Of a DNA stretch of 64,000 nucleotides, positions 35,798 to 62,644 are shown in pieces. Source of the DNA: Niabella beijingensis (lineage in GTDB: Bacteria > Bacteroidota > Bacteroidia > Chitinophagales > Chitinophagaceae); assembly GCF_020034665.1 (NCBI RefSeq), contig NZ_JAIQDI010000002.1, forward strand, positions 2,480,001-2,544,000, written 5' to 3'. The position numbers and the translations under genes were made by a program. The stretch's first letter is position 1, and each line of letters begins with the position of its first letter. The notes beneath the pieces are model-generated. The model made no database searches. It saw nothing but the letters and a program-made list of their open reading frames with translations, and was not told the origin of the DNA.

Positions 35798-36020
35798 TTT
35801 ACAGGCATTTCGTTAATGATGAATGAACGCACACGCTTATGTACCAGTATCAGGTACCGAATTTACAGTGTTTTGGCAATTTAAACAATCTCATGTTGTT
35901 TTTTTGCCCGGGGAGCAGCAGAAAACATCCGTAAAAAAGCACAAAATCGATGCACCAGGGAAGACAGCAATGCGTTACAAATATAAAATTACCGCTCGTT
36001 AAAGACCGGCGGCAATAGTT

Positions 36021-39517: not shown

Positions 39518-39742
39518 AATGATTTGTGATGCTGATTTTAAGATCGCAAATGTACAGGAGCTTACGGCGCTGCCTGTTACGAAATCGGGAATTTATCATC
39601 ACCAAAGTCACAAGGAGACATAAGACCTTATCAGGGTATAGTCAAAAAACTGTACAGAAAAGCCACAACGGCCAATCAAGCTTTCAGCGCCTTGCGGGAT
39701 GTGCCGGCAGCAGTGTTATTTTGTGTACAGGGTCCTGGAGTT

Positions 39743-41970: not shown

Positions 41971-41983
41971 TGAAAATTTTAAT

Positions 41984-44031: not shown

Positions 44032-44670
44032 ATGACAGCAGCCCGCCGCAACAAAGCCGAAAAATTCTGGGACAGGACCGCAGGCCATTACGACAAAGAA
44101 GAACAAAAAGATGAAAAGATCTATCGCGGGATCATTGAAAGAACGAAAGACTTTTTGACGTCAGCGGACACCATACTGGACTTTGGCTGCGGAACAGGAA
44201 CTGCCTCCAATGAACTGTCGGCAGTGGTAAAGGAGATTCATGCATTTGATACTTCATCACGAATGATTGAGATCGCCCGGTCAAAAACACCAAAAAAAAG
44301 GGTCACTTATATCCATTCAACAATTTTTGACAACCGGTTGAAAACAGATTTCTATGATGCCGTGCTGGGGTTTTATATATTGCATTTGCTGGAAGATCCG
44401 CAGCCCGCAGTATCAAAAATATACGAACGTTTAAAACCCGGCGGCCTGTTTCTGTCTGTTACGCCCTGTATGGGTGAAAAGCCGTTCCTCGCCCGCGTTT
44501 TCTCGCTCCTGGGCAAACTGGGAATGGCACCTGAAATGCAGCCGCTTAAACCGGCTGGTCTGGAACGGCTCATAACAGCCGCATCATTTACGATCATCGA
44601 AAGCAGCCTGCTGCCCGGGACCAAAAACCAGTATTTCATTGCAGCAAAAAAAGCAGCGATACTACACTAA
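44032..44670 (+). CDS. Class I SAM-dependent methyltransferase
   Basis: 212 aa. FWDRTAGHYDKEEQ start is typical of Methyltransf_11/25 type enzymes, then motif I ILDFGCGTGTASNEL, the acidic end of beta-2 in IHAFDTSSRMIEIAR, DAVLGFYILHLLEDP (post-motif II) and LKPGGLFLSVTPCMGE (motif III). Substrate unknown. It converges on the glycolipid-like operon: its last 9 bases (44662-44670) overlap the end of the minus-strand 185 aa gene. It might act with that operon, but it is on the other strand, so no co-transcription. Confidence 0.82.
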   Translation: MTAARRNKAEKFWDRTAGHYDKEEQKDEKIYRGIIERTKDFLTSADTILDFGCGTGTASNELSAVVKEIHAFDTSSRMIEIARSKTPKKRVTYIHSTIFDNRLKTDFYDAVLGFYILHLLEDPQPAVSKIYERLKPGGLFLSVTPCMGEKPFLARVFSLLGKLGMAPEMQPLKPAGLERLITAASFTIIESSLLPGTKNQYFIAAKKAAILH

Positions 44671-45219
44671 AACAACCTGCCTGATCTTTGCAAAGCGGTT
44701 TATTGAGCGTTTCATAAAATACAGGGCAACAGTGCCGGCATAGATGCCCATGAGTATACTTACCGTCAGCCCGTTGTAGGTCTGCCCCTCCGGCATGCCC
44801 AACTGCAGCACGACCATCACGGCCAATGTAAGTACAAGTGTGATACAACCGTTGATCAGCGCATGTTTCAGCAGAAAGCTGTTGTACCGGAATCCGGGAG
44901 GAAAGGAAAAACCAGCGGCGTGTTTTTGAAAAAGGATCCGCATTTTATTCATGGTATCGATGGTAACAAGAAGCGGGATAAAGAATGCCAGGGGTAATAA
45001 GAAACGGGCGACACAATAAGTACCTTTAAAAAGATACACGGCGCCCGGGTCTTCAAAACTAAGATAGGGAATAACGGAATTAAAGAATACGTTGGTACCC
45101 GCATAGATCAGCACATTCCTGACGAGGAACCGTTTCCATGCGCGGGGGGCAACGGTTACAGCCGTTTTATCTGCGGCATACCCCATGGCAGCCGTTCCCG
45201 TTTCATTCGGTTGTTTCAT
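44662..45219 (-). CDS. Four-helix membrane protein, last gene of PKS operon
   Basis: 185 aa, not recognised. A ~30-residue cytoplasmic start, then four hydrophobic segments: NVLIYAGTNVFFNSVIPYL, CVARFLLPLAFFIPLLVTI, ALINGCITLVLTLAVMVVLQLG and YNGLTVSILMGIYAGTVALYFM, ending in a basic tail (KRSINRFAKIRQ). It starts 13 bases after the stop of the 423 aa acyltransferase, so it is probably the last gene of the operon. It may help move or anchor the product, or shape the membrane for the enzymes; this is inference. Confidence 0.6.
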   Translation of the reverse strand: MKQPNETGTAAMGYAADKTAVTVAPRAWKRFLVRNVLIYAGTNVFFNSVIPYLSFEDPGAVYLFKGTYCVARFLLPLAFFIPLLVTIDTMNKMRILFQKHAAGFSFPPGFRYNSFLLKHALINGCITLVLTLAVMVVLQLGMPEGQTYNGLTVSILMGIYAGTVALYFMKRSINRFAKIRQVVLV

Positions 45220-45232
45220 GGCGTTCAGGTGA

Positions 45233-46504
45233 TCATGCGGTAACGGTGACCGCTTCTTTTAACAGATCCATAAATGCTTCCCGGACCGCCTGTGCTTTTT
45301 CCCGGGCCAGGAACGATTCTTCTGATATCAGGGAAAAATCAAGCTGTCCTCCAAAACTCGTCACTACAAGCGTGTTCGGGTTCTTCCAGGGGAGGGCCGT
45401 GCTGGGTGAATAGACCCGTTTTATTTTAAACCCGTTGTATGCATCCGGGAGCTCCAGTTTTCCCATATTGGAAAGTGTGATATCATGACTGCCGTTAACC
45501 GTCCGTAAATGTTTCAGCATTTTATCTGCTGCCCGGTGAAAATATTCTGTCAGCACCAGCAGGTGAGCGGGCCGCAGCCGGCTGATCTTTTCCTGCAGGT
45601 CGGCCTTCATCCGGCGGGCCTGCTCCCAGTATGCAGTGCCTTCTTTATATGTTCCCGAAAGCTCCACCACCGGCGCAAAAGCAAACATCATGTCTTCTTT
45701 GATACCCGGTACGGATTTTCGGATATCCACCGGGCAGATCAGTTTGTTTTTGGCATCCTTGCCCATTACCTTTCCAAAAGCCGTCAAAAAAGCAATACCA
45801 AGGGCCGCCTGCACCGAGGTTCCACCGGCTTTGCAGGCATTTATTACCTGCTGCGACAGGTTGCGGTCCAGCGACCAGCGGATCATATAATAGTTCATTC
45901 CAGTGGCTTCCTGTTTATTGCGGATCAATATCGACAACACCCCACGGGCCACATGAGATAACAGCCGGGCCCTGATCTGCGCGCCCTTTCCCGGCATTTC
46001 GTTTGCAGTAATAAGATCTGTGGTTCCGGAAAACGTATCGTAAGGAATGGCTTCCAGCGACGGGTCGCCGGTGTACGACAACAGTTCCCGCATCAGGTTT
46101 ACGATCGTTCCGCCGTCGCAGACACAATGCGGCAGCACGATTACCAGGTCTGACACGGCACCGCCATTCAACCAGAGCACCCGCATCAGGGGGGCCCTGT
46201 TGTAATTAAACGGCCGGTGCCATTCCACCTGCGCCACTTTTATCCAGTCTTCTTCGGTGTTTCGCGGCAATACTTCCACAACCGCCGGCACCATATCGGT
46301 CCGTATATCAAAATAAGGCGCGCACTTCCGGTCTTCCTTTATTACGGCACGCAGCAACGGATGTTTGGCCTGCAGTTTTGCAAAAGCTGAATCGATACGG
46401 CCCTGCTGCAACTCTCCTGCGATGGTTACAGAAAAAACACAATTAACCGTCCTTGAGCCATTGGCATACATCAGGCGTTCTCCAACAATAAGTCTTCTTT
46501 TCAT
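45233..46504 (-). CDS. PapA/condensation-type acyltransferase (variant motif)
   Basis: 423 aa. It starts MKRRLIVGERLMY and is paralogous to the next 430 aa gene. The acyltransferase motif HHxxxDG appears here as PHCVCDGG (residues 125-132): the first His is Pro, the catalytic second His (126) and Asp130-Gly131 are kept. The second half has ICPVDIRKSVPGIKEDMMFAF (a conserved Arg-rich bridge region) and TSFGGQLDFSLISEESF. Related enzymes (PapA5, WS/DGAT, NRPS C domains) join an acyl-ACP or acyl-CoA to a hydroxyl or amine. One base separates it from the upstream gene. It likely adds an acyl chain to the operon product. Confidence 0.75.
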   Translation of the reverse strand: MKRRLIVGERLMYANGSRTVNCVFSVTIAGELQQGRIDSAFAKLQAKHPLLRAVIKEDRKCAPYFDIRTDMVPAVVEVLPRNTEEDWIKVAQVEWHRPFNYNRAPLMRVLWLNGGAVSDLVIVLPHCVCDGGTIVNLMRELLSYTGDPSLEAIPYDTFSGTTDLITANEMPGKGAQIRARLLSHVARGVLSILIRNKQEATGMNYYMIRWSLDRNLSQQVINACKAGGTSVQAALGIAFLTAFGKVMGKDAKNKLICPVDIRKSVPGIKEDMMFAFAPVVELSGTYKEGTAYWEQARRMKADLQEKISRLRPAHLLVLTEYFHRAADKMLKHLRTVNGSHDITLSNMGKLELPDAYNGFKIKRVYSPSTALPWKNPNTLVVTSFGGQLDFSLISEESFLAREKAQAVREAFMDLLKEAVTVTA

Positions 46505-46505
46505 A

Positions 46506-47798
46506 TCAATCTGGATCGCGGTCCGGCTGCAGGCGCAGCAACAGACCCATAAGCGTTTTTTTTATGGCCACAGCTTCGGTATAAGGAATATACCCCTCGC
46601 TGGATACGAAGCTGAAGTCGAGTTGTTTTTTAAATGTCGAGCTGATCAATGTGGTCGGATTTCCCAGCGGGCCGATCACCGAAGGACTGAAGATGGTATC
46701 CACTGTGAAGTGGCGGTATCCCGCCGGAATATTGAGCAGTCCCAGATTCGAGAACATACAGTCATTCGTCGATTTTCCATACTTCAGGAAATCGATCATC
46801 CGTGGCAAAACCGGGTGCGCATATTCAAACATCATCAGCGAATCGTAGGCGTTCAAACGGGCCAGCCGCTTTGAAGCCAGCGCCTGCATCCGCTGTGCCC
46901 TGGTTGCGAAATCCAGTCCTGCTGCCTTGTCCATCGATAACACCAGCATCAGGCCAAAAGCAAACATGGCGTCTTCCCTGATCTCAGGCGCATATTTACG
47001 GATCTCCACCGGGCAGGTAATTTTATTGAATGCCTTTTTTCCCCGTACGGATGCAAAAGCGCTAAGCAGTGCAAGGCTGATGACCGTATTAACGGTCGCT
47101 CCGATCGCCTTACAGTTCCGAAGCAGCTGCCGGGTTTCCTCTTCGGAGAGCTTCCAGTTCAGCAGGTAATCCGGCCCGCGGTCAATCGTTCTTTTCCGCA
47201 ACGGGAGTGCATGCAGCAACAGGTAACCGGCCTTACCCAGGAACCGGGCACGGAGTATTTTTTTGCGGTTGTGCAGTACGGAAGCCGGTACCACATCCGC
47301 CAGCCCTGTAAATACCCGTTCCCTGCCGATATCCGCGTCGGGCTGATCCATCAGCAACAGGAACTCTTTTACAAGTGCCAATGCCGAGCCACCATCACAC
47401 ATACAATGATGAAATACCAGCAGCAGTTCCGAAAGAGCAGTACCACGGATCCATACCAGCCGGATCAGCGGCCCGTTCTGTGCATTAAAACCGGTATTCC
47501 ATTCTTTCACCGTCTCCTCCTTCCACATTTCATCCGAACAGCGTTCCGCAATGCGTATGGGTATGGCTGCTTCCGGCACCGTGCTCTCAAACCAGGGCAT
47601 TCCTTTCCCGTCGACTGTTACCGCCGCCGCAAGTACCGGGTGTTTTTCCTGCAGCCGCTTCAGTGCGTGTTGCAGTTGCTCACGCGTCAGTACACCCCGA
47701 ATCCTTAGCGGGAACAACCCGTTAAAAGGAGTTACGCCGTCATTGTACATCATCCGCTCTGCAAACAGCATCTTTCTTTTTATTCTTGGCTCTGTCAT
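46506..47798 (-). CDS. PapA/condensation-type acyltransferase
   Basis: 430 aa with the full HHxxxDG site: HHCMCDGG at residues 130-137. Opening MTEPRIKRKMLFAERMMYNDG and the ITCPVEIRKYAPEIREDAMFAFG and STFKKQLDFSFVSSEGY segments align with the neighbouring 423 aa protein, so the two arose by duplication. Family members transfer acyl groups from a carrier protein or CoA onto hydroxyls, as PapA5 does when releasing polyketide lipids in mycobacteria. Three bases lie between the upstream glycosyltransferase stop and this start. With no thioesterase domain in the synthases, this enzyme is a plausible chain-releasing catalyst. Confidence 0.8.
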   Translation of the reverse strand: MTEPRIKRKMLFAERMMYNDGVTPFNGLFPLRIRGVLTREQLQHALKRLQEKHPVLAAAVTVDGKGMPWFESTVPEAAIPIRIAERCSDEMWKEETVKEWNTGFNAQNGPLIRLVWIRGTALSELLLVFHHCMCDGGSALALVKEFLLLMDQPDADIGRERVFTGLADVVPASVLHNRKKILRARFLGKAGYLLLHALPLRKRTIDRGPDYLLNWKLSEEETRQLLRNCKAIGATVNTVISLALLSAFASVRGKKAFNKITCPVEIRKYAPEIREDAMFAFGLMLVLSMDKAAGLDFATRAQRMQALASKRLARLNAYDSLMMFEYAHPVLPRMIDFLKYGKSTNDCMFSNLGLLNIPAGYRHFTVDTIFSPSVIGPLGNPTTLISSTFKKQLDFSFVSSEGYIPYTEAVAIKKTLMGLLLRLQPDRDPD

Positions 47799-47801
47799 GT
47801 A

Positions 47802-49001
47802 TCAGATCACATTGGGCGTGGTTTCCATTACAAAATTTTCCAGCAGTGTAACCGCTCTGGAGCTGCCGCCTGCTGCTATAAAAGTGGCGCGCACCCGGGC
47901 CGCTGCCTGCCGGAACTGCGGCTCTTTCAGCAGCCTCCATACAGCATTGCGTACATCGTCCACCCGCATCCGCCTGTAGCGGATCTTAAGACCGCATCCG
48001 GCTTTTTCGATCAGCGAGGCCGTATGAAAATGATCGTATGCGATCGGCGTAACCAGCATGGGCAGTCCGTTCATAAACGTATCGTTCACCGTATTAAAGC
48101 CGCCGTGGCAGATCACCGCGTCCATATAGGGCATCAGCTCCGATTGCGGCACAAAGCCCTGTACGATAAAATTATCCGGCCATTGCTCAATAACAGAAGG
48201 ATCTGTGGCAGCAATGATCGTCAGCGGCTCATCACGGAAGGCTTCGATCAGCCGGGTAAAAAATTCCTTGCGTATGTCCACCAGCAAGGTGCCCAGCGAT
48301 ACAAAGACCCTCGGAGTATTGGCCTTTGACAGACGCTCCCAGTCGAACGGACTATGATTGGGCCGGCCCTGTACCGGGCCTACAAACTGCATATGCGATT
48401 CAGGCTCTTCAATCCCTGCAAATGCAGCAGAGGTAAAAACAATATTCATCTCGTGGGAGTGAATAAAGATCCCATCCGTTTCAACGCCGACACTGCGTTG
48501 CAATTCCTTTATCAGTTGTTGCTGCCACTCAAATATTTTAGGTGCATGAAGGGCGGTATCGCCCATTACATCGGGCGGTACCGGCGTGGTGGTAACACAG
48601 GGGATTCCTTTTTTATAAGCGGCAAGAGCGCCCGCAAAAGCAATACAATCATTAACGATCACATCCGGCTTCCACTCATCGATCACCCGTTCCAGTCCCG
48701 GCATCATCATTGTTGCGAGGGGGACATATGTTTCTTCCAATGCCAGCTTCATCACTTCCGGACCGGATAGCGAAGGACCATCGTCCTGGCGTTTCAGCAA
48801 CACTTCAATCGCTCCGCGATGCGGCTCCAGCTCCGCTTCCGGCACTATGAACAGCCCCCCTTCCGGTATATGTGTTTCATGAACCGGCACCATACCCAGC
48901 CAGGCTACTTCATGTCCTTTTGCGATCAGTCCGGCACCCACACTGAGCGTTGGACTTAAGTGCCCGAAAAAAGGAGGTACCACAAATAAAAATTTCGACA
49001 T
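47802..49001 (-). CDS. CrtX/MGT-like family 1 glycosyltransferase
   Basis: 399 aa. GT-B fold, family 1. N-terminal acceptor domain FVVPPFFGHLSPTLSVGAGLIAKGHEVAWLG with catalytic-type His14 in GHxxP. Mid FVSLGTLL, then the donor-binding PSPG-like box FIVQGFVPQSELMPYMDAVICHGGFNTVNDTFMNGLPMLVTPIAYDHFHTA (given in parts: VPQSELMPYMDAVICHGG, GLPMLVTPIAYDHF). Closest in feel to zeaxanthin glucosyltransferases and macrolide glycosyltransferases, which glycosylate lipophilic hydroxyls using UDP-sugars. Eight bases after the second, paralogous glycosyltransferase. Probably glucosylates the polyketide or a first sugar. Confidence 0.85.
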   Translation of the reverse strand: MSKFLFVVPPFFGHLSPTLSVGAGLIAKGHEVAWLGMVPVHETHIPEGGLFIVPEAELEPHRGAIEVLLKRQDDGPSLSGPEVMKLALEETYVPLATMMMPGLERVIDEWKPDVIVNDCIAFAGALAAYKKGIPCVTTTPVPPDVMGDTALHAPKIFEWQQQLIKELQRSVGVETDGIFIHSHEMNIVFTSAAFAGIEEPESHMQFVGPVQGRPNHSPFDWERLSKANTPRVFVSLGTLLVDIRKEFFTRLIEAFRDEPLTIIAATDPSVIEQWPDNFIVQGFVPQSELMPYMDAVICHGGFNTVNDTFMNGLPMLVTPIAYDHFHTASLIEKAGCGLKIRYRRMRVDDVRNAVWRLLKEPQFRQAAARVRATFIAAGGSSRAVTLLENFVMETTPNVI

Positions 49002-49009
49002 ATTATCTT

Positions 49010-50245
49010 TTATGCTCCGCTGTCCGCCGGCTGCAATTGCGCCCGGTCCGCAGGAAGATCTTGTTTTGCTGTTACTAATATTTCCAGATAACCGGCAGCT
49101 GCAGCTACTCCCCCGGTTGCTTCAAATGAAGTGCGGACAAGGCCTGCCGCTTCCCGGAAGCGCTGCTCCTGCAATATTTCCATTACCGCATCCCGCAGGT
49201 GCTGCGCCCTGAACCGGTTGAAATTAAGCCGCAGTCCTGCACCGGTACGCACCACCCTGCCTGCAACATGCGACTGGTCGTAAGCGATCGGTATCACCAC
49301 CATGGGTAGTCCGTGGCTCAAGGTTTCACAGACGGTATTGTGTCCGCCATGACAAACCACCGCCTGCAAATGCGGGAGCAACTCCAGTTGCGGCACCGTT
49401 TTCTGAATGATAAAATTATCCGGTATTGCTTCAAAGAGCGCCGGGTCGGATACCACCACCACCGTAAGTGCCCTGCCACCAAAAGCTTCCAGCACTTTAT
49501 CAAAGAACAGTTGCTTATGCGTATGATCAAAAGTGGTGCCGATGCTCACCAGTATCCTTGGGTGCGGTGTATTGTGAAAGCGTTCCCAATCAAAGGCCTC
49601 AATGGACTTACGGCTCTGTATCACCGGGCCTACGAAACGGAACTGTTCCGGCAATTCCATTTCCCCGAAAAACAACGGTGAAGTAAACACCAGTGTCAGT
49701 GCCTCTGAACAATCCAGCGCCTGGTCACCCGGCCAGCCCAGTTCCTGTTGCAGGGCCACGATCTGCTTTTCCTCCCATTCATGTACTTTGGGCAGCTCCT
49801 CCATTACTTTTATTGCAGCAGGGGCCGTTACGGAAGTAGCATAAGGTAGTCGCAACTGCCGGGCAGCAACTGCACCGGCAAACAGCTGATGATCCGTAAT
49901 AACCACATCCGGTGCAAAGCGCAGCAATGCATCCCGGATGCCATCATACATATAGCGGTTTAAAGGGATCAGCACTTCTTCATATAAGAATTTAATGCTG
50001 TCGATGCCATAAACATTTTTCCGGGTAATGATATCGAGGTAAGCCTTGCTTTCCTTTTTTTCTGCGTCGCTGCGGTCATAGCCGATCAGCAGCGGGGTTC
50101 CGCCCTCCGGCAGTTTGTCCTGCAATGCCGGGTCCAGACTGATCCAGCCCACTTCATGCCCTCTGCCCAGCAATGCGCTGCCGAGACTGAGCGTCGGGTT
50201 TACATGTCCGGTAAGCGGGGGTACTATAAAAGCAAATTGTGCCAT
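49010..50245 (-). CDS. CrtX/MGT-like family 1 glycosyltransferase, second copy
   Basis: 411 aa. Opening FIVPPLTGHVNPTLSLGSALLGRGHEVGWISLD has His14 in GHxxP. SIGTTFDHTHK, then FIIQKTVPQLELLPHLQAVVCHGG and GLPMVVIPIAYDQSHVA form the donor site. It is paralogous to the 399 aa gene downstream (same length class, same motifs). Paired glycosyltransferases suggest either a disaccharide or two separate sites. 12 bases after the hydrolase stop. Donor sugar not readable. Confidence 0.85.
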   Translation of the reverse strand: MAQFAFIVPPLTGHVNPTLSLGSALLGRGHEVGWISLDPALQDKLPEGGTPLLIGYDRSDAEKKESKAYLDIITRKNVYGIDSIKFLYEEVLIPLNRYMYDGIRDALLRFAPDVVITDHQLFAGAVAARQLRLPYATSVTAPAAIKVMEELPKVHEWEEKQIVALQQELGWPGDQALDCSEALTLVFTSPLFFGEMELPEQFRFVGPVIQSRKSIEAFDWERFHNTPHPRILVSIGTTFDHTHKQLFFDKVLEAFGGRALTVVVVSDPALFEAIPDNFIIQKTVPQLELLPHLQAVVCHGGHNTVCETLSHGLPMVVIPIAYDQSHVAGRVVRTGAGLRLNFNRFRAQHLRDAVMEILQEQRFREAAGLVRTSFEATGGVAAAAGYLEILVTAKQDLPADRAQLQPADSGA

Positions 50246-50257
50246 ATTCCGTTTTTC

Positions 50258-51055
50258 TTAAAATACATTTCCGTCCGGTTCCATCACCGGTACCGCTTCA
50301 GTCAAAAAGTGCAGCAGGACCCCGGCCACTGCTTCCGGAGCCTGGACCGGTACATTATGATCGCCTTCTATTTCTTCCAGTTCAGCACCCGGTATGCGTT
50401 CTTTTAAGAAATAGCCGGCACGCAGGCAATTCGAGCGGCTGCCATAAATCAACAGCGGATGATGCTCCAGCCCGGCAATCGCATCGCTTGAAAAAAAATC
50501 CTTCTCTGCCAGCATATCCTGTTTAATTGTAGTCTGATAAAAAAGATATTCATACATGCGGTGGTTCCGTTCCAGCTGCCGCTTTCCCATTTGTACCTTT
50601 GTGGCATCGGTAAAATTTCTGATGTAATGTTCCAGGAATTCCCTGCTGTACTCATCCATAATGCCCCGCGTTTTATCATCCGCCGGATCAGGTCCCTCAA
50701 TCATGATAAGCCGGTCAATACGCCCGGGAAAACGCAGGGCCGCTTTAAGGCTGATCAGTGCACCAAAACTATATCCCACCAGGTGCACTTTCTCCAGCCC
50801 GAGGGCATCCATCAGCGCCCTGAGGTCATCCGACATACTGTCCAGGTCATAACCATCCCTCGTCCGTTCGCTCATGCCATGACTCTTAAGATCGTACAAT
50901 ACCACATGAAAACGCAGCGCCAGCAGCGGGGCGATATTAAAATAATAAACGGAGAGGTTACTGAACATACCATGCACCATTACTACTGTTTCAGCAGCGC
51001 CCTTGTTCAGTTCCTGGACATGAACCTTTTTTCCGTTGATCGGGATTATCGGCAT
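50258..51055 (-). CDS. Alpha/beta hydrolase (possible release enzyme)
   Basis: 265 aa. Alpha/beta-hydrolase signs: oxyanion loop VVMVHGMFSN, YDLKSHGMSERT, nucleophile elbow VGYSFGAL (Ser96), LLIYGSRSN before the acid region, and catalytic His233 in EEIEGDHNVPV. No lid of a lipase type is obvious. It overlaps the end of the ACP gene by 10 bases. Because neither synthase carries a thioesterase domain, it could free the acyl chain or act as an editing thioesterase; transacylation is also possible. Cytoplasmic, no signal peptide. Confidence 0.8.
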   Translation of the reverse strand: MPIIPINGKKVHVQELNKGAAETVVMVHGMFSNLSVYYFNIAPLLALRFHVVLYDLKSHGMSERTRDGYDLDSMSDDLRALMDALGLEKVHLVGYSFGALISLKAALRFPGRIDRLIMIEGPDPADDKTRGIMDEYSREFLEHYIRNFTDATKVQMGKRQLERNHRMYEYLFYQTTIKQDMLAEKDFFSSDAIAGLEHHPLLIYGSRSNCLRAGYFLKERIPGAELEEIEGDHNVPVQAPEAVAGVLLHFLTEAVPVMEPDGNVF

Positions 51056-51348
51056 TCCTGTATATAATTGATGATATCGTTCAGGTTCAGCCGGATCAGC
51101 TGGTCGAGGTCCATACCCGACAACCAGCCGGTAAAATCGATCCGGGTGCCAAAATGTGCTTTTACTTTCTCGGAGAAGGCAACGATCTCGATACTGTCCA
51201 TTTCCAGATCTTTTGTAAAAGAGCTTGTAGGCCGGATGTCCATTTCTTCTGCAAATTCTTCGCCGATCACTTCGGTGATCATTTGTTTTAACTGATCAAA
51301 GATCGCTGCCGCAGCAGGTTGATCCGGGGTTGTTGTTACTGTGTCCAT
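51046..51348 (-). CDS. Stand-alone acyl carrier protein
   Basis: 100 aa. The phosphopantetheine site is FTKDLEMDSIEIVAFSEKV (Ser in DSIE). A ~15-residue Thr/Pro/Ala leader precedes the helical ACP fold. Acidic and small. The start overlaps the stop of the KS-AT-DH-PPTase gene by 13 bases. It could shuttle the finished chain from the iterative synthases to the acyltransferases or hydrolase, or load a starter unit. Confidence 0.9.
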   Translation of the reverse strand: MDTVTTTPDQPAAAAIFDQLKQMITEVIGEEFAEEMDIRPTSSFTKDLEMDSIEIVAFSEKVKAHFGTRIDFTGWLSGMDLDQLIRLNLNDIINYIQECR

Positions 51349-54300: not shown

Positions 54301-55586
54301 CCCACCGGCTCCGCTACTGCACGAAAGCGGGTCTGTGCCATTTGCGGCAACGGTTGCGTACAATATAACGTAGGGGGCAATATGTCGTGATACAGGGCCA
54401 TTGCCGTCTTGATCAATCCTGCAATACCTGCAGCCGGCATGGCATGCCCGATGTTCGACTTCACGGAACCGATACCGGCCCTGGGCCGTGTATCACCGGT
54501 ACCAAAAACTTTTCTGAGCGTTTCCAGCTCCGTCTTATCACCAAGCGGTGTACCGGTTCCATGGGCTTCAATATATCCCACTTCATCCGGACCGATGCCA
54601 GCCATATCCCATGCCTGCTGTATCGCCTTTACCTGGCCTTTTACAGCCGGGCTCATTACACTGGTACCACTGCCGTCGCTGCTGACCCCTACTGCTTTTA
54701 TAACTGCATAGATCCGGTCGCCGTCCTTTACTGCTTCGCTTCGTTTCTTTAATACCACAAAGCCACAGCCTTCACCGATCAGCAACCCATCGGCATCCTG
54801 GTCAAAAGGACGGATCTGTTGTTTCCTTGATAAAGCGCCGAGCTGACTGAAGATGCTCCAGAAGGCTGCGTTCTGCGCCACATGCACTCCGCCGGCGATC
54901 ATCCGGTCGCAGCGGCCGCTGTGGAGCTCCCGGATGGCCTGGTCTACTGCCAGCAACGAACTGGCACAGGCCGCATCCACAGTATAAGCGGCACCGCCCA
55001 GGTTGAGGCGGTTGGCCACCAGCGATGCCACCAGGTTAGGGATCAGTCCCATTGCCGTATCAGCGCTAAAGCGGCCTTTACGTTCCTGGTAACCCTTCTT
55101 TATTTTTTCTATTTCTGTTTCAGACAAATGGGGCGATACCTGCCGCATTATTTCTGCGATCTGTTCACCTGTTCTTACGATCTCGATCGCCCTTGTAGCG
55201 CCAGGCCCTGCATAATTACCTTTTCCGATGATGATACCGGTCCGTTCAAGCACTTCCTTATCACCAAGCATGCCGGCATCTTCAAGGGCTTTACAAACCA
55301 GATCGAGCGTCAGCAGCTGGTCGGGCTCCATGCCTTCTACTGCCAGGGGCAGGACCCCGAAACGCACCGGATCAAAAGTAACCTCCGGGATAAAACCACC
55401 CCTGCTGCAATAGAACCGGTCGGCACCTTCAGCAGCAGCATCAAAATACAATGCGTCCAGCCGGTCGGCCGGAACGGTTTGCACCGCATCTTTTTTATCC
55501 AGTATGTTCTGCCAGAAGGCAGGAAGATCGGCTGCACCGGGAAAGATGCAGGACATTCCTGTTATGGCGATATCGGTTTCTTTCAT
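51336..55586 (-). CDS. Iterative PKS: KS-AT-DH-PPTase
   Basis: 1416 aa from the ATG at 55586 (MKETDIAITGMSCIFPG); the open frame continues 80 codons upstream into the previous gene but that part has no KS resemblance. Domains: KS 1-455 with Cys207 (DAACASS), His342 (EAHGTGT) and His381 (NIGHA); AT ~545-830 with Ser613 (GHSLGE) and His714 (GFHSPF); dehydratase ~940-1190 with His956 (IDHALL) and Asp1110 (LLDNAGQ); C-terminal phosphopantetheinyl transferase ~1215-1416 with GIDMET (1325-1330) and WVAKEAYGK (1364-1372). The built-in PPTase would activate the ACPs of this pathway. This resembles secondary-lipid and PUFA-type synthases. 71 bases after the first synthase. Confidence 0.88.
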   Translation of the reverse strand: MKETDIAITGMSCIFPGAADLPAFWQNILDKKDAVQTVPADRLDALYFDAAAEGADRFYCSRGGFIPEVTFDPVRFGVLPLAVEGMEPDQLLTLDLVCKALEDAGMLGDKEVLERTGIIIGKGNYAGPGATRAIEIVRTGEQIAEIMRQVSPHLSETEIEKIKKGYQERKGRFSADTAMGLIPNLVASLVANRLNLGGAAYTVDAACASSLLAVDQAIRELHSGRCDRMIAGGVHVAQNAAFWSIFSQLGALSRKQQIRPFDQDADGLLIGEGCGFVVLKKRSEAVKDGDRIYAVIKAVGVSSDGSGTSVMSPAVKGQVKAIQQAWDMAGIGPDEVGYIEAHGTGTPLGDKTELETLRKVFGTGDTRPRAGIGSVKSNIGHAMPAAGIAGLIKTAMALYHDILPPTLYCTQPLPQMAQTRFRAVAEPVGWSSSGLKRFAGVNAFGFGGINAHVVLEGLEQQQKAAPEPVSGDRLLLLARNSKAALISALTEGATRPGEGNYRIALFDPTPERIAKAIKIVSKDKPWRNRQDIWFTNEPLLLRGAKLAFVFPGLDGLAGGEVESVAEYFGLDQRPVAREKGLLDQALDVLDRSRVLDTAMKRLGIIPDMNAGHSLGEWLAARSAELAEEASVAQLLNMLDPRTFELKDSRFIAIGCGLDTIGPVMERIPDLYLSNDNCPSQVILCGTHTAIAQLTELLKERQLFYQVLPFQSGFHSPFVADKLDVLLQGMEAMCFQKTKIPLWSATTLQTYPENFEAIRKLSVEHLVRPVRFRELMLKLYEEGARVFVQIGSGGLTGFIDDTFKGRSYSVIASNLPVRTGMAQLKRVLAALFTEGKEVDLAFLGISNEPEPGTTRRIKLQLGAPLVKGWPHPDMIAPGMTRTIPVNEQPVAAAAHPVIRAMKENVDEMIRMQEELLTLFRTTEQPYSGDGTPAVQALQPFTRELDITLENTPYLIDHALLRQPKGWACVEDMDPVIPMTLIFELFGETALAQAPGRRVQQILNTRVLQWMNVAQPFRETIRGRWKTPDLALLDLEKYATAEVVLAAVLPAPPKTDKNIGEDLGISIIPQKIYEEHMFHGPAYQGIVSVTTVGEKGISGRIRGVGGKGSLLDNAGQLFGLWLQLTLAKDRIAFPVKIQEIAFYGDMEDQQGIFECTCVLTAMNDEFATADIIMEREGSTWAVITGWQNRRLEIDEALWKVSMSPLHNRLSEEVAPGIFLFNNAYTRMVSWDFILKRYFNQDEKKYYQQLPPARKKEWMISRVAVKDAVRALLQRERGYSCFPITFTTGSNAVQQPFVTGSKVDGISISLAHKGTDAVAVAASGKPVGIDMETVASRTAGFMELSFTATERDLIKDRDPAEWSTRFWVAKEAYGKMLGQGLKGNPRAYEIKQINGDALLINDTVIKTIQYKNYIIGWTQ

Positions 55587-55657
55587 TTGAACTTTCAGAC
55601 ATTTTTGTACAGCAGCTGCCGGGGGATCCTGATCATTATCTTTCCTGCAGACCGGGC

Positions 55658-58600
55658 TTACCAGACATCCCCGGCCATGATCAGCACCTGGCTTTCCGTA
55701 CCATATTTCAGTTCGTTCACAAAACTTTCCAGGCCGTCCTCCAGGGGTATCATTGCGATGCCTCTTTTTATGTATTCTTTTTCCAGCGAAGGTGAAACCA
55801 TACCGGCACCCTTCCACGGGCCCCAATTGATGGAGGTGACCCGGCCTTTGATCCTTTCCTTCAGCGCCCAGGTATAGCGGTCCATCACACTGTTGGCCGC
55901 CGCATAATCGGTTTGCCCGCGATTGCCGTACACCGATGCGATACTGCTGAAGAAGATCACAAACTGTACCTCTTCCTTCAGTTCTTCAACCAGTACCCGC
56001 AGGGGGGTAACCTTGGTGGTAAAGACCCTTTCAAACGATTCTGCCGTTTTATGAAGGAACAGTTTATCCTCCAGGAGACCGGCACCATGAATCACACCGT
56101 CGATGCGGCCCTGCTCCCGGTATACGCTCTGGATAAAAGCGCGCAATCCTTCTTCATCCCGGAGGTCCAGCGAATAATAGCTTGCCGTTGCACCGTTATT
56201 TTCAAGTGTCTTTATTGCATGCAGGATCTGGTTATTTTTAAACAGTTCCTGTACGCTTTTCTCTATTTCGGAAGGAGCCTTTAACAGACCTTCTTCAATC
56301 AACTGTTTCCGGATCGCATCTTTTGTTTTCAATGCCGCGTAGGGATTGTTGCCAACCGGGTGCGGAGAACGTCCTACCAGGATATAATGACAGGGATATT
56401 CCCGGGCAAATCCGGCCGTAAGTTCAGCGGTTATTCCCTGTGCGCCTCCAAACACCAACACTACAGCTTCCTTGCCGAGATGCAGGGTGGTTTGCCCTTC
56501 CTTTGCAGTCAGATGAGACGACACGAGGTTGTAACGGAACCGCTCTGTTCCCTGGTAAAGGACCTCCGGCGGCCGGTCCGCGTACAGCAGTTCGTTCAGC
56601 ACAATGGTTGAAAAGGCCGCAGGATCCAGTACCGATTGCAGGCTGATCATACGGCAACAGGTCTGTTCCAGTTCGCGGTCGAGGCTCTTCATCAGACCAG
56701 AAAATCCCTGGTAACGGCGCAGCAGGGTTATATCGCCGCTTTGTTTCATATGCCCGGTAAGATCGCTGAGCGTAAAGATCCACGATACTTTTTCCGGGTT
56801 TAGTTTTTTAATAAGGGCAAAGGCATCCATAATGCTGTAACATCGTTCCGATTCATGGGCATTGATGATGATAAGACCGTCGTACAGATCCAGCGGATCC
56901 TCCATTGTGATCACACGGGCTACCGCACCCTGTTCTTCCAGCCGTTGCTTTACAGCTGCCGCCATATGCCCGTTGTCCTCGGTAACAGCAAAGAGCTTTC
57001 CACGGATCAGTTCAGGATCTCCGGCAGCTGTTTGCGCAGCGGCAATTTCAAAACGCAGCCGGGAGATCAGGTTGTCTGAATCTTTCCGGCCGGAGGTAAG
57101 CCCTTCATTGATGATCTGCTGCGCTTCCTCAACCGGGGTTGCAGTAGTACCGGGTTTACTCAGCCAGCCCAGCAGGCCATTCAGGGTTTTGATGGCCGCC
57201 AACTGTTCCATCAGATCATCACCCGCCGCTTTATCCCCGCCCAATGCACCTTGCAGGGCGCCGATGATCTCCATCCGTTTGATCGAATCAATGCTCAGGT
57301 CTGCCTCAAGATCAAGATCGAGCCCGAGCATCTCTACCGGGTAACCGGTTTTATCACTTACGGTCTGCAACAATACAGCACGCAGATCCGGCACCGGCCG
57401 GTTCAACGCCCGCGCTGCCGGCACAGATGATTCCGGTTCCGGCTGACCGGTATTGGCATTGATCCAGCTGATCAGACCGCTCAGGGTTTTGATGGCCGCC
57501 AGCTGTTCCATCATCTCTTCTCCGGCATCACCACCGGTATTAAAACCGCCCAGCCTGTTCCGCAGCTCACCGATGATCTCCATTCTTTTTATAGAATCGA
57601 TACTCAGATCGGCTTCCAGGTCCATTTCCAAACCCAGCATTTCATTGGGGTAACCGGTTTTATCACTTACCACCTCCAGCAATACTGCTTTCACATCTGC
57701 AGCCCCGGGTTGCGGCAACGCGGCAGGAGTTATATCCGGGATTACAACAGCAGGAACCGTTGAAGCCGGTGGAATGGGCGGTGGCACCCGGTTCGCCGGT
57801 ACAGCCGGCGGCATCATCACGGGTTGCCCGAGATAACTCATCATCACATCCCGCTGTGCCTGTATCATCATTTTCATGCTGTTCAGGTATTCCAGCATCA
57901 TTTTATCTGTGGAAGAAGGTTCCTGTATCATGGAAGCAGTTGACGTTTTCAGCTGAAGGGGTTGTACGATCGGCAAGGCGCCGTGGTCCGGCAGCGTACC
58001 GGAAGCCGGTAATGCCTTCTGTCCGTCTATATACCAGAGGGCGGGGCTTTTACGGTAAGCTTCCGGTGTATCGATTTTGAGCAGCCGCGCATTCCTGTTG
58101 CTGAATAATTGCTGCAGATGCACCTCCCTTCCTGTTGCCAGGTAAGCTGCAATCGTTTTAAGCAGCAGCGCAATACCTCCCTGATCCTTATCTTCTGTAT
58201 GCAATACCAGCCCATCTTTATTCAGGATCGACCGGGTAAGTCCCGCCAGTACTTTGCCCGGTCCGGCTTCAATAAATATCCGCGCACCTTCAGCATACAT
58301 GCCTTCTATTTCTTCCGTAAACTTAACCGGCTCCACCAGGTGCTTTGCCAGCTGCTGCCGGATCGCTTCCGGCTGCGCCGGATAGACACCGGCCGTGGTA
58401 TTGGACCATACCGTTAATTGCGGGCTGTGGAAGGGCACCGCCTGAAGTGCAGCAGCAAACAGGTCTTCAGCGCCGGCCAGCAACGGACTGTGAAAAGCAC
58501 AGGCCACTTCCAGTTGCCGGAAGGAGATCTTCTCTTCTTTCATCCGTTCCATCAGTTGCTGCATGGCAGCTGTGGTTCCCGCCAGCACTGATTGTTTGGG

Positions 58601-61600
58601 CGCATTAAAATTAACGGCCCATATATCCTTTTCGTCTTTGATCAATGCCTGCAATGCGGCGGACGGCAAGCTCACGGCGGCCATCATTCCTTTATCGGCG
58701 CCAACAGCATTCAATATGGCGGCCGCTCTTTTTTCACTCAGATCGACCAGCACTTCCGGATCAAACACCCCCGCAAAGCATAATGCAGGCAACTCACCAT
58801 AGCTGTGCCCGGCTACCATGTCGGGCACGATGCCAAGCGAAAGGAGGTATTCGGCAATGGCGAGATCCACGATCCCCAGCAGCGGCTGGGCATTGCGCGT
58901 ATCTTTGATCGCTTCCTGCTGTGCTGCGCGTGCGGCTTCGTTGAACACAGCATCCGGAAACAATATTTTTTCATATTTTTTATGCCGTGCCAGCAAACAG
59001 CGCATTGCGGGGAACGCAACAAACAATTCCCGCGCCATATTGATACGCTGGCTGCCCTGCCCGGAAAACAGGAACGCCACCTTACCTTCTTTTTTATCTA
59101 TTGAAAAAACGCCCTCGGCTGCAATGCCCTGCCTTGCAGCCTCTATACGTTCCAGCAACTGCACACTGCTTCCGGCAATGATACTGAACTGTACCGGTGC
59201 TTCATTATAAACTGCCAGACTGTACGCCAGGTCTTTTAATGAAAGGGTATCATTCGCATAAAGCAATTTTTTTACACGCTCCATCACCTGTATTGCCGCA
59301 CCGGAAGTTACACCCCGGAAAACAAACAATTCAACCGGCCAGGCAGGCAATGGCATTGCCGGCTCCTGTGCAGGGTTACTTTCGAGCACTGCATGAAAAT
59401 TGGTCCCCCCAAAGCCAAAGGCGCTCACACCGGCCCTTCGGATTGCATCGGTCCAGATACCTGCCGCTGCATTAAACGCAAACGGACTGGTCGATGGTGC
59501 GTAATACCCATTGGGTTGATGCAGGTGGATAGTAGCGGGTTTTACACCGTGATAAACAGCAAGTGCCGCTTTGATCAGCCCGGCCAGGCCCGCTGCACAT
59601 TTGGTATGCCCGATCTGCGTTTTTACAGAGCCCAGATGTACCTGCCCCGGCAAAGCACCTGCATTCAGCAACAGGTCGGTCAGTGCGCTCAGTTCTGTGC
59701 GGTCGCCCACTACGGTTCCGGTTCCGTGTGCTTCCAGCAGCCCCAATGCTGCCGGTGAAATACCCGCCTGTTCATAGGCCCGTCCGAGTGCGCTGAGCTG
59801 TCCGGTTTTACGGGGAGCGGTCAATCCAAGACTTTTGCCATCGCTGCTGCCGCCCACACCTTTGATAACAGCATAGATCCGGTCTTCGTCGCGCTCAGCA
59901 TCTTTCAGCCGTTTCAATACTACAATAGCTACACCTTCTCCCAATGCAATACCATCTGCTTCCGCGTCAAAAGTGGCGCAGCGTCCTTTACGCGAAAGCG
60001 CATGCGTACTCGAGAACATCAGGTAGTCGTTGATACCGTTATGCAGGTCTACACCACCGGCCAGCACCATATCCGACTTTTCAAGGATCAGCTCCTGACA
60101 GGCCAGGTCGATGGCCGCCAGCGATGAGGCACAGGCTGCATCTACTGTATAATTGCGGCCGCCGAGGTTCAGCCGGTTGGTGATCCTTCCGGAAATCACA
60201 TTTGCCAGCACTCCCGGAAAAGAATCTTCTGTAAGTTTGGGCAGGGCCTTATCCAGTTCTTCCGGCATTTCGCCAAAGACCTGTTTAAAATAATTGCGGA
60301 AACCATAGCTGTTCGCCAGGTCGTTGCCACCTTCAGCGCCCAGGATCACGGATACATTTTCCGCATTAAAATCACCGTCCTTATAACCGGCATTTTCAAG
60401 CGCCTGTTTGGCCACCAGCAGGCTGAGCAGCTGACTGGGTTCGATCGCGGCAAGCGACTGCGGCGGTATGCCAAACTCCAGCGGATCAAAATCTATACGG
60501 GGAATAAAGCCGCCCCATTTGGAGTGCGACAAACCCTCCGCGCCAGAATCCGGATCGAAGTAAAGTGCTTTATTCCAACGGTCGTCAGGTACTTCCGTTA
60601 CGCTATCGGTACCCGTTACAATATTGCGCCAGTATTCATCGAGGTCTCTAGCTCCGGGATAGATACAGGCCATACCCACAATGGCAATATCCACGGCCTT
60701 GTCCGTTCTCACAGGCAGTATTGGCAACGCGGCCGATTGTAAATAAGCGGCGCTGCCTTCTGTTACATTTTCATGCAGCTCCCGGAGGCTCATGGTGCCG
60801 TGATGCATTGCTGTTACCTGTCCGATCATATACATACCCCGGTCCAGCTGCCCGGTTGCATCCACCGCCACCAGGTTGCTGTCCTGCCGCTCGATACCCT
60901 TGGCAGCGATCCTCAGGCGGCCAATATTCAGTGCCTCCAGTTGCTTCCAGATCTCTTTTTTATCCCATCCTTCTTTTATGAGCCGCTGTTTTTCCTGATT
61001 AAAAAAATCAGTGAAAGGAGAACAGAGGCAGCGGGTTTCATGACCCGGTGCTGTTTCCAGCAATACCGTATCTTTTTTTGCGATGGCCTGCTGCTGAAAC
61101 TGTTCAAGCACGGCACCTGTCTGCACGGCTTCATGGGTGAAGATATAAGCCGTACCCATCAGCACCCCCAGCTTTGCACCCCGTGCTGCCAGCGGCGCAG
61201 CCATTACAGCAACAAATGCGGCAGAAAGCGCATCGTGTATGCCACCGGCAAAAAAAACATGGATATCCGAAAGATCATCTTCCTGCAATAACCGTTCGAT
61301 CTGTTTCTCCCAGAGCACCATGCTTGATAAGGGTCCGACATGACCGCCGCATTCCCTTCCTTCAAACACAAAACGCCGGGCTCCTTCCCGAAGGAACAGG
61401 TCCAGTAATACTACAGAAGGCACATGCAGGAATACAGGGATCCCCATCTTCTCCAGTGGTTTGGACTGCGAGGTCCTGCCCCCTGCGATCAGCACCACCG
61501 GTGGCCGCTCTTCGCGGATCAATGCCAGCTGCTCCTCGCGCAGCTCCTGCGGAGCAAAGCCTAGAATGCCCACGCCCCAGGTTTTACCGCCGGCCAGTGC

Positions 61601-62644
61601 TTTGGTCTGCCGGATAAGATCACGTGCCGGTTGCCCTTTTAAAAGACTTAACGCCACAAACGGCAGTGCACCGGCATTGGCTACCGCTGCTGCAAATTCC
61701 GGCACATCGCTTACACGGGTCATAGGCCCCTGCGCTACAGGATAGTGAATGTTCAATGCCTGTGCCATTGTATTTCCCGGACACAGCACGTTCAGGGCTT
61801 TGGCCTGAACCAGGTGTCCGTGCATTGCCTCATGAAAGGCAAACACGAGGTGTTCCATTTTTTTATAACGGGCTGAAAGACCGGCTGCCAGCGCCACATC
61901 CTGCCCCAGGGGAATAAAACCTGTTTGCAGTTCCCAGTTACCCAGCAACGGACTGATATCGGCAAAAGCCGCAGCAGCAGGCAAAACCGGGCTGTCGGGG
62001 CGTACGAGTACCCGGTACCCGTCAATGACCCGCGTCTCATTCCCGTTTAGTTTTTCTGCGATTTTTTTTATGATTGCGGGAGCATTGCATTCCCGGAACA
62101 GCAATACCTGGCTGTCGAGCACCACCCCTGCTGCTCCAAGCGCTTTCACCGCAGCAGCCGTGTGGATGCCAATCCCGCCCTGTACATAAACAGGAATATC
62201 TTTAACAGCAGCTATTACACGCTGAAACAGGATATAGGCCGACTCCTCCCCAACCGCTCCCCCGCTTTCATTGCCCTTTACAATCAAAGCGGCGGCTCCG
62301 GCATTTTTCGCCTGCAACGCCTCCTCCAATGCAGTAACCTGGTAAAACAACCGGGCCGGATCGGTACCGGACACTTGCCCGTGCAGGCTCCAGGGTGCTA
62401 TAACAACTGAAATATTGTCCGGCAACCGGATATCCTCCGGAAGAGCGGTTGTCAGACAGATGCCAAAGTTGTCCCGTTCCTGTCTGTCCATCTCATCAAG
62501 GGCAGTTACGATATCCGCTTTTTTCCGCCCCAGGTGCACAACAGGGAAGGCTCCGGCCCGCGCTACAGTCAGGGCGAACCTGACGTCCGGGATTTCGCAT
62601 GGAGACACGATCAGCAGGTCCTCATCTGGAAATTTTGGATGCAT
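55658..62644 (-). CDS. Iterative PKS: (enoyl-reductase-like barrel)x2-KS-AT-ACP-ACP-KR
   Basis: 2328 aa, first gene of the operon. Residues 1-530 are two FMN-type TIM barrels of the nitronate monooxygenase/PfaD class: the first (1-230) has NESGGAVG and lacks the His, the second (~300-530) has RECGGHVG (His435) and AGGIHDALS. KS 650-1090 with Cys838 (DAACASS), His973 (EAHGTGT), His1013 (IGHTK). AT ~1185-1500 with Ser1281 (GHSYGE) and His1385. Two very similar ACPs with Ser1684 and Ser1787 (both ADLSIDSIKRMEI). Ketoreductase ~1870-2320 with FGGAQGIT and Tyr2247/Asn2251 (DYAAAN). Together with the second synthase this gives the full KS, KR, DH, ER cycle. Confidence 0.9.
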   Translation of the reverse strand: MHPKFPDEDLLIVSPCEIPDVRFALTVARAGAFPVVHLGRKKADIVTALDEMDRQERDNFGICLTTALPEDIRLPDNISVVIAPWSLHGQVSGTDPARLFYQVTALEEALQAKNAGAAALIVKGNESGGAVGEESAYILFQRVIAAVKDIPVYVQGGIGIHTAAAVKALGAAGVVLDSQVLLFRECNAPAIIKKIAEKLNGNETRVIDGYRVLVRPDSPVLPAAAAFADISPLLGNWELQTGFIPLGQDVALAAGLSARYKKMEHLVFAFHEAMHGHLVQAKALNVLCPGNTMAQALNIHYPVAQGPMTRVSDVPEFAAAVANAGALPFVALSLLKGQPARDLIRQTKALAGGKTWGVGILGFAPQELREEQLALIREERPPVVLIAGGRTSQSKPLEKMGIPVFLHVPSVVLLDLFLREGARRFVFEGRECGGHVGPLSSMVLWEKQIERLLQEDDLSDIHVFFAGGIHDALSAAFVAVMAAPLAARGAKLGVLMGTAYIFTHEAVQTGAVLEQFQQQAIAKKDTVLLETAPGHETRCLCSPFTDFFNQEKQRLIKEGWDKKEIWKQLEALNIGRLRIAAKGIERQDSNLVAVDATGQLDRGMYMIGQVTAMHHGTMSLRELHENVTEGSAAYLQSAALPILPVRTDKAVDIAIVGMACIYPGARDLDEYWRNIVTGTDSVTEVPDDRWNKALYFDPDSGAEGLSHSKWGGFIPRIDFDPLEFGIPPQSLAAIEPSQLLSLLVAKQALENAGYKDGDFNAENVSVILGAEGGNDLANSYGFRNYFKQVFGEMPEELDKALPKLTEDSFPGVLANVISGRITNRLNLGGRNYTVDAACASSLAAIDLACQELILEKSDMVLAGGVDLHNGINDYLMFSSTHALSRKGRCATFDAEADGIALGEGVAIVVLKRLKDAERDEDRIYAVIKGVGGSSDGKSLGLTAPRKTGQLSALGRAYEQAGISPAALGLLEAHGTGTVVGDRTELSALTDLLLNAGALPGQVHLGSVKTQIGHTKCAAGLAGLIKAALAVYHGVKPATIHLHQPNGYYAPSTSPFAFNAAAGIWTDAIRRAGVSAFGFGGTNFHAVLESNPAQEPAMPLPAWPVELFVFRGVTSGAAIQVMERVKKLLYANDTLSLKDLAYSLAVYNEAPVQFSIIAGSSVQLLERIEAARQGIAAEGVFSIDKKEGKVAFLFSGQGSQRINMARELFVAFPAMRCLLARHKKYEKILFPDAVFNEAARAAQQEAIKDTRNAQPLLGIVDLAIAEYLLSLGIVPDMVAGHSYGELPALCFAGVFDPEVLVDLSEKRAAAILNAVGADKGMMAAVSLPSAALQALIKDEKDIWAVNFNAPKQSVLAGTTAAMQQLMERMKEEKISFRQLEVACAFHSPLLAGAEDLFAAALQAVPFHSPQLTVWSNTTAGVYPAQPEAIRQQLAKHLVEPVKFTEEIEGMYAEGARIFIEAGPGKVLAGLTRSILNKDGLVLHTEDKDQGGIALLLKTIAAYLATGREVHLQQLFSNRNARLLKIDTPEAYRKSPALWYIDGQKALPASGTLPDHGALPIVQPLQLKTSTASMIQEPSSTDKMMLEYLNSMKMMIQAQRDVMMSYLGQPVMMPPAVPANRVPPPIPPASTVPAVVIPDITPAALPQPGAADVKAVLLEVVSDKTGYPNEMLGLEMDLEADLSIDSIKRMEIIGELRNRLGGFNTGGDAGEEMMEQLAAIKTLSGLISWINANTGQPEPESSVPAARALNRPVPDLRAVLLQTVSDKTGYPVEMLGLDLDLEADLSIDSIKRMEIIGALQGALGGDKAAGDDLMEQLAAIKTLNGLLGWLSKPGTTATPVEEAQQIINEGLTSGRKDSDNLISRLRFEIAAAQTAAGDPELIRGKLFAVTEDNGHMAAAVKQRLEEQGAVARVITMEDPLDLYDGLIIINAHESERCYSIMDAFALIKKLNPEKVSWIFTLSDLTGHMKQSGDITLLRRYQGFSGLMKSLDRELEQTCCRMISLQSVLDPAAFSTIVLNELLYADRPPEVLYQGTERFRYNLVSSHLTAKEGQTTLHLGKEAVVLVFGGAQGITAELTAGFAREYPCHYILVGRSPHPVGNNPYAALKTKDAIRKQLIEEGLLKAPSEIEKSVQELFKNNQILHAIKTLENNGATASYYSLDLRDEEGLRAFIQSVYREQGRIDGVIHGAGLLEDKLFLHKTAESFERVFTTKVTPLRVLVEELKEEVQFVIFFSSIASVYGNRGQTDYAAANSVMDRYTWALKERIKGRVTSINWGPWKGAGMVSPSLEKEYIKRGIAMIPLEDGLESFVNELKYGTESQVLIMAGDVW

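Follow-up and report, generated by a model that had tools for sequence, protein, structure and literature searches.

Secondary lipid synthases have been divided into types, and Beijerinckia indica is listed under Type P (phenolic lipids) by Shulse and Allen (2011; PMC3098273). Type N is an uncharacterised secondary lipid synthase type of Chitinophaga pinensis and Chryseobacterium gleum (PMC3098273). ArsA, the Type P enzyme of Azotobacter, reportedly produces C23-C25 fatty acids (PMC4824345). In a screen of prokaryote genomes, heterocyst glycolipid (hgl) islands proved closely related to polyketide synthases (PKSs) of the polyunsaturated fatty acid (PUFA) type, those of some Bacteroidetes genera among them (PMC11804610). 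PUFA-like hybrids with PKS and nonribosomal peptide synthetase (NRPS) have also been mapped, and that set is different from the one considered here (PMC13291983). The present analysis concerns a nine-gene operon on the minus strand of a 64,000-nucleotide stretch (hereafter the window) of Niabella beijingensis contig NZ_JAIQDI010000002.1 (positions 2,480,001 to 2,544,000). Judged from its predicted proteins, the operon would encode the assembly of a glycosylated, O-acylated long-chain lipid, and we place the probability of this reading at about 0.6.

Domain content was assigned with Pfam and NCBIfam profiles. All nine genes are present from position 62644 down to 44662: two synthases (g9 and g8), a free acyl carrier protein (ACP; g7), an alpha/beta hydrolase (g6), two glycosyltransferases (GTs; g5 and g4), two Pap/condensation-type acyltransferases (g3 and g2), and a small membrane protein (g1, hereafter M). 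The initial annotation had proposed this operon with gaps of -13 to +71 bases; coordinates and gaps were borne out (+71, -13, -10, +12, +8, +3, +1, and +13 from g9 to g1, taking ATG 55586 as the g8 start), as was the identity of the ACP, hydrolase, GTs, and acyltransferases. Catalytic residues are intact in the window operon and 99-100% conserved in aligned relatives (n = 78-81, window included), while other motif positions vary. The conserved set includes the Cys-His-His of the ketosynthase (KS) in both synthases, acyltransferase (AT) Ser and His, ACP Ser, ketoreductase (KR) Tyr, dehydratase (DH) His and Asp, and Pap His and Asp. Motifs had been described as complete throughout. This stands for the catalytic residues, but in g9 the GGH histidine of the second flavin barrel is absent from the first, g2 has PHxxxDG instead of HHxxxDG, and the g8 AT lacks the malonate-binding Arg.

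Gene order is conserved well beyond the window. The g8 marker occurs in 10 of 394 genomes sampled from the family, the window's included, and all 10 loci, when read, run g9-g8-ACP-hydrolase-GT-GT and then Pap. A scan of 84,980 named species genomes with only two exact peptide patterns from the g8 C-terminus gave 293 matches, of which 273 are relatives of that C-terminus (at least 273 stretches). Counts for named loci are based on the best 80 of these 273 relatives, with consecutive matches to one gene merged. The order g8-ACP-hydrolase-GT-GT-Pap-Pap is kept in 79 of the 80, and the remaining locus (L115) stops at a contig end. Gene g9 is missing in L084 only, where the contig begins inside g8. 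Hosts are Pedobacter, Mucilaginibacter, Chryseobacterium, Dyadobacter, Flavobacterium, Sphingobacterium, Niabella, Taibaiella, and one unplaced Sphingobacteriaceae genome. Thus the order recurs in family and named genomes alike, and the tailoring genes travel with the synthases; the concern raised at the outset, that they might not be conserved together in relatives, was not borne out. Pedobacter panaciterrae O48 has two copies of the locus on one contig (L070 and L071), in opposite orientation and about 70 kb apart; their match statistics are identical, so this is either a duplication or an assembly artefact.

Synthase g9 resembles PfaA. It scores 1034 bits against TIGR02813, above the cut-off of 1010.1 for PfaA-type KS-AT-ACPn-KR proteins. 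In a six-frame search of 395 genomes with the same model nothing exceeded the cut-off, and the g9 stretch itself was matched at 686 bits. The protein has two ACPs. Its first 285 residues (NMO1) form a further flavin barrel that has diverged from the NMO2 one (hhalign of NMO1 against NMO2: probability 95, E 4e-8), with GNExGG where NMO2 has ECGGH, and NMO1 is also found in Streptomyces (35%) and Beijerinckia (30%). A malonate-type Arg lies 25 positions after the AT Ser in 78 of 79 motif windows, drawn from 80 open reading frames (ORFs) assigned to g9. We take this position to be that of the malonate-binding Arg of FabD (Arg117). The sole Leu comes from L084, in which the g8 ORF was picked for the missing g9, and L124 gives no window because its g9 is interrupted.

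Synthase g8 is of a different kind. Both megasynthases had been called PUFA-synthase-like, which holds for g9 only: g8 is a KS-AT-DH-PPTase protein (PPTase, phosphopantetheinyl transferase), and domain searches of g8 found neither the chain-length factor of a PfaC KS-CLF nor FabA-type DH domains. The region that follows the KS gives matches to malonyl transferases and AT-bearing proteins, and none among the 60 listed of its 66 PDB matches is a KS-CLF by name. The g8 DH scores 21.3 bits (E 2e-4) against PS-DH (PF14765), under the cut-off of 23.7, whereas the DH of its relative in family genome G098 exceeds it (26.3 bits, E 6e-6) and has a weak PKS_DH_N match in addition. The DH catalytic His and Asp are present in 100% of 81 sequences. 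Since the DH is PS-DH-like and neither a CLF nor a FabA-type DH/isomerase turned up in g8, a methylene-interrupted PUFA is improbable as the product. The g8 AT keeps Ser and His, but Leu occupies the malonate-binding Arg position in the window and in 80 of 80 loci, and the Streptomyces g8 AT likewise has no Arg. Loss of this residue suggests that the g8 AT probably moves fatty acyl groups.

Glycosyltransferases g5 and g4 score 54-60 bits against PF00201/PF06722 (GT1, UDPGT; cut-offs 19.5/31.7). For the macrolide MGT subfamily (TIGR01426) the two GTs reach 177 and 194 bits, below the 260 cut-off. The YDHFH motif of g4 and the YDQSH motif of g5 are each found in 100% of 80 sequences. In plant GT1 enzymes, a Gln/His position of the donor site can set the choice between glucose and galactose. 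The difference between His in g4 and Gln in g5 makes it likely that the two GTs add two different sugars.

Acyltransferases g3 and g2 belong to the Pap/condensation superfamily: the His and Asp of HxxxDG are kept in 99-100% of 78 (g3) and 80 (g2) sequences. Among PDB entries, g3 matches a phthiocerol/phthiodiolone dimycocerosyl transferase best (E 3e-13). Operon loci carry one to three Pap genes, two in the window. Two are present in eight of the 10 family loci, and an extra one in the three Dyadobacter loci examined for it (L095, L121, and L116). In the g2 orthologue of Taibaiella chishuiensis (G261; L038/L039), about 60 internal residues are duplicated in tandem, possibly through an assembly error.

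Membrane protein M has no assigned family. A four-helix protein had been predicted; its membrane nature was upheld, but hydropathy gives three clear peaks, and M probably has three to four helices. Its Pfam matches are weak: SepA for the window protein (E 0.007) and SecD_SecF_C in two of 12 members scanned (best E 3e-4). M is present in 69 of the 80 named loci; those without it are nine from Dyadobacter, one from Mucilaginibacter, and L115, which is cut by its contig end. It is absent from family genomes G103 and G098, and in two genomes of another genus (G152 and G222) it is fused to the C-terminus of the only Pap protein. Eleven genomes were searched for M beyond the operon; five gave one match each, all at the operon, and six gave none, so the M family appears to belong to this operon alone as far as seen. 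The Pap-M fusion, together with the restriction of M to the operon in these genomes, suggests that acylation takes place at the membrane.

The initial annotation's reading, a surface or membrane glycolipid pathway, is partly supported, and a pathway can be proposed from these features. The PPTase domain of g8 would activate the ACPs. The KS, AT, two ACPs, KR, and enoylreductase (ER) of g9, together with the g8 DH, would then iterate on malonyl-CoA to give a long acyl chain in largely reduced form, in which a beta-hydroxyl may survive if the DH step is skipped. The g8 AT, with its substituted Arg position, would probably load or unload fatty acyl groups and feed the second KS (KS2) or the free ACP, and the hydrolase may edit or release chains. 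The two GT1 enzymes, with their distinct fixed donor-site residues, would add two sugars. Finally, one to three Pap acyltransferases would esterify sugar or lipid hydroxyls, working beside M or joined to it and thus perhaps placing acylation at the membrane.

The nearest relatives found by sequence comparison are a five-gene core on Streptomyces plasmids and, for the putative fatty-acid part, the Beijerinckia Type P cluster. In a plasmid collection, g9 matches 677 records at E 1e-50 or better and g8 matches 463; for each, only two records cover at least 80% of the query. They are the same two plasmids, of Streptomyces sp. NBC_01243 and NBC_00984, and are the best g8 matches. Both have g9-g8-ACP-alpha/beta hydrolase-GT in the same order as the operon (identity 42.6% over 99% of g9 and 36.9% over 100% of g8). 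Unlike the operon, they have one ACP site in g9 (by tblastn), a single GT followed by an S-adenosylmethionine (SAM) methyltransferase, and no match to g1, g2, or g3 and no Pap genes. On a plasmid of Rhodobacteraceae SC52 (L163, 11587-26206), a g9-like synthase is accompanied by a dioxygenase, a methyltransferase, and a PPTase-bearing protein of 1296 aa; the plasmid record names no product.

The Type P (ars) locus of B. indica pBIND02 resembles the operon in its NMO1-NMO2-KS-AT-ACP-KR protein and its DH-PPTase, found by tblastn domain by domain, and a glycosyltransferase gene is annotated nearby. In contrast to the operon, its DH-PPTase is separate from any KS-AT, it has no match to g1-g7, and it has an ABC exporter and two genes annotated as proteins with a C-terminal domain of beta-ketoacyl-ACP synthase III (KAS III). 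Methylosinus sp. C49 has the same two proteins, although its NMO1 match covers residues 102-274 only, and one KAS III C-terminal domain gene. We read the KAS III genes as the Type P type III PKSs; the nine operon genes include no type III PKS by Pfam and NCBIfam.

Horizontal gene transfer is suggested by the distribution of the operon and by KS phylogeny. In a phylum sample, 4 of 395 genomes have the g8 marker, window included. Of the 17 genomes in the window's genus two give strong matches, and in the genus of G636 the marker is present in 56 of 98; we take that genus for Chryseobacterium because two of its loci (L136 and L137) share 88-91% identity with Chryseobacterium loci from named genomes. 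The KS tree (55 rows) was built by a quick method with Shimodaira-Hasegawa-like approximate likelihood ratio test (SH-aLRT) support only, has some long branches, and holds no canonical PfaA, PfaC, or HglE reference. The g9 KS (KS1) and KS2 each form their own clade, with the Streptomyces KS as sister (support 98 and 99), and the internal groups of the two clades are near-identical. The single Sphingobacterium locus groups with Flavobacterium and Chryseobacterium, apart from Pedobacter and Mucilaginibacter. This tree and the patchy distribution are the evidence for what would be horizontal transfer. Base composition was considered as a sign of recent transfer and set aside: GC content is 52.8% in the operon and 48.4% in the remaining window, but third-position GC (GC3) is 0.55-0.60 in six operon genes against 0.53-0.58 in three neighbours, so there is no clear compositional signal.

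By description, Type N is similar to the operon in being from Bacteroidota, pfa-like, and of unknown product, whereas tailoring genes are not named in the available description (PMC3098273). Chryseobacterium, the genus of one of the Type N hosts, has the g8 marker in 56 of 98 sampled genomes. In two sampled Chryseobacterium genomes (G636 and G690), the two candidates scored for PfaA are this operon. The operon core may be the Type N of Shulse and Allen (2011). A Chryseobacterium herbae region labelled "hglE-KS, T1PKS, terpene" by antiSMASH is without similarity to known clusters (PMC10459008), and the coordinates of this region (2.2) enclose one of our loci (L120) if contig 2 of that paper is NODE_2. 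An hglE-KS/T1PKS region of Sphingobacterium thalpophilum, compared by description, likewise has no similarity to known clusters (PMC11446778). Both labels are automatic and name no product. Three consecutive class I terpene synthase-like ORFs, recognised by eye, lie about 8 kb downstream of the C. herbae operon (L169, 8538-11654); they are probably the source of the terpene label, which we set aside as falling outside the operon.

Other described systems share parts of the operon. The hgl islands, by description, combine a PKS-made alkyl chain with a glycosyltransferase; Pap genes are unmentioned in the available text (PMC11804610), and the operon has no exporter gene, hgd included. Pfa PUFA synthases share a PfaA-like protein (g9), an NMO-type ER, and a PPTase, but their CLF and FabA-type DH were not found in the operon, and AT and ER are fused differently. 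Mycobacterial Pap/PKS glycolipid systems also place a Pap-type acyltransferase beside a reducing synthase. They differ in their synthases, the operon has no transporter gene, and its PapA scores are below family cut-offs. The initial annotation knew of no characterised product for the nine-gene set, and we found none in the literature searched, which leaves out most subscription journals. The synthase type had been described before. The searched papers did not show the nine genes as a conserved set, the unusual AT, the fusion of Pap with M, or the core shared with Streptomyces.

Several observations weigh against a glycosylated, acylated lipid. Acceptors of the GTs and acyltransferases are not readable from sequence, and a polyketide or some other molecule could be what the GT pair glycosylates. 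Against Condensation (PF00668, cut-off 30.6 bits), g3 scores 42.8 and g2 only 29.2, just under. PapA5 proper was not recovered (NF006787, 28.9 against 396 bits; PF16911, at most 21.8 against 30). Two family genomes (G152 and G222) have a single Pap, and M is absent in 10 of 79 loci with Pap genes and in two of 10 family genomes, so M is not essential. There is no exporter gene among the nine. In a few loci a gene copy looks defective, through sequencing error or decay: interruptions affect papB in L069, L080, and L085 and g9 in L124, and L089 has a short g4. The argument from Arg loss draws on the general enzymology of malonyl transferases.

Among alternatives, the synthases could make a diffusible glycosylated polyketide, an antibiotic or signal, which the GTs and Pap proteins modify or protect. 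We consider this unlikely. In its favour, the GTs match macrolide/YjiC-type GT1 enzymes best, the distribution is patchy in the phylum, in Chryseobacterium, and in the window's genus, and a convergent MFS-like transporter gene and a TetR-like gene (named by eye from G152 translations) lie downstream of the operon, adjoining it in G152 and G222 and about 5 kb away in G098. However, that pair was seen at only three of the 10 loci in the family, the operon has KR, DH, and ER, each of them conserved, and among the fatty-acid engines found whose kind of product is known, the closest is Type P, a supplier for phenolic lipids. Rather less probable is that KS2 and the non-malonyl AT of g8 join two chains or start a second one, giving a branched (mycolate-like) or two-chain glycosylated lipid; this overlaps the acylated glycolipid proposed above, and the odds of the two are not additive. 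KS2 with Cys-His-His and an AT with Ser-His and no malonate Arg are found in 80 of 80 loci, and the Beijerinckia Type P locus gave only one KS of such kind by tblastn, but the nine genes include no AMP ligase or carboxylase, and KS2 may simply join in elongation. A PUFA-type chain as in Pfa systems, glycosylated afterwards, is very improbable. It would agree with the curated PfaA score of g9 and with the alignment of the g8 KS to 6riw (310 bits), which we take to be a chain of a PfaC KS-CLF; the failure to find a CLF or a FabA-type DH/isomerase in g8, the DH nearest to PS-DH, and the presence of two ACPs only all argue otherwise. Glycosylation and acylation of a carotenoid in a CrtX-like manner, with the synthases supplying the acyl group, is hardly credible, for although the GT1 family in general would fit and a PF00494 (phytoene/squalene synthase family) protein is present in nine of 12 operon-bearing genomes tested, none was found in the window's genome, N. 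aurantiaca, or C. herbae, and a carotenoid acceptor was accordingly rejected as unlikely for the window's genome.

Operon features are listed in Table 1. The operon has clear ends, since a divergent ORF starts about 670 bases upstream and, at the other end, the last operon gene shares 9 bases with a convergent methyltransferase gene (44032-44670). The g8 ORF is open to TTG 55826, and a start there would overlap g9 by 169 bases. Ordinary neighbours occupy 30619-42631 of the window, including TonB receptors, a FecR-type regulator, a PepSY protein, a sulfate permease family protein, and a methyltransferase. In locus L029, a pair of large ORFs of secreted type (3317-5398, 693 aa, and 12482-14674, 730 aa) lie near the operon on opposite strands and look paralogous by eye.

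Table 1. Genes and domains of the operon, with their positions in the window.
Feature	Coordinates	Strand	Content or motif
g9, N-terminal part	55658..62644	-	NMO1 (aa 1-285), NMO2/ER (286-640), KS (650-1090), AT (1188-1476)
g9, C-terminal part	55658..62644	-	ACP-ACP (about 1650-1850), KR (2060-2290)
NMO1, degenerate first flavin barrel of g9	61790..62644	-	GNExGG, no GGH histidine
g8, KS - AT - PS-DH-type dehydratase - PPTase	51336..55586	-	likely start ATG 55586
g7, free acyl carrier protein	51046..51348	-	EMDSIEIV
g6, alpha/beta hydrolase, putative thioesterase	50258..51055	-	GYSFG, GDH
g5, GT1-type glycosyltransferase	49010..50245	-	YDQSH
g4, GT1-type glycosyltransferase	47802..49001	-	YDHFH
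g3, condensation/Pap-type acyltransferase	46506..47798	-	HHCMCDGG
g2, condensation/Pap-type acyltransferase	45233..46504	-	PHCVCDGG
g1 (M), small membrane protein, no assigned family	44662..45219	-	three clear hydropathy peaks

In a broader and more tentative view, for which the odds are somewhat short of even, the operon may represent a horizontally mobile, widespread Bacteroidota system for an undescribed class of acylated diglycosyl lipids, with a five-gene core shared with Streptomyces, a second KS-AT that works on fatty acyl in place of malonyl groups, whether to join, start, or unload chains, and a Pap acyltransferase with M as its membrane partner. Should the product be a glycolipid, then a lipid or glycolipid metabolite labelled only "hglE-KS/T1PKS" in two genome papers would be carried by many of the Bacteroidota common in soil and in association with plants. 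The acyltransferase-membrane protein pair is offered for study, and the operon may tell the purpose of one "secondary lipid" type left open since 2011.

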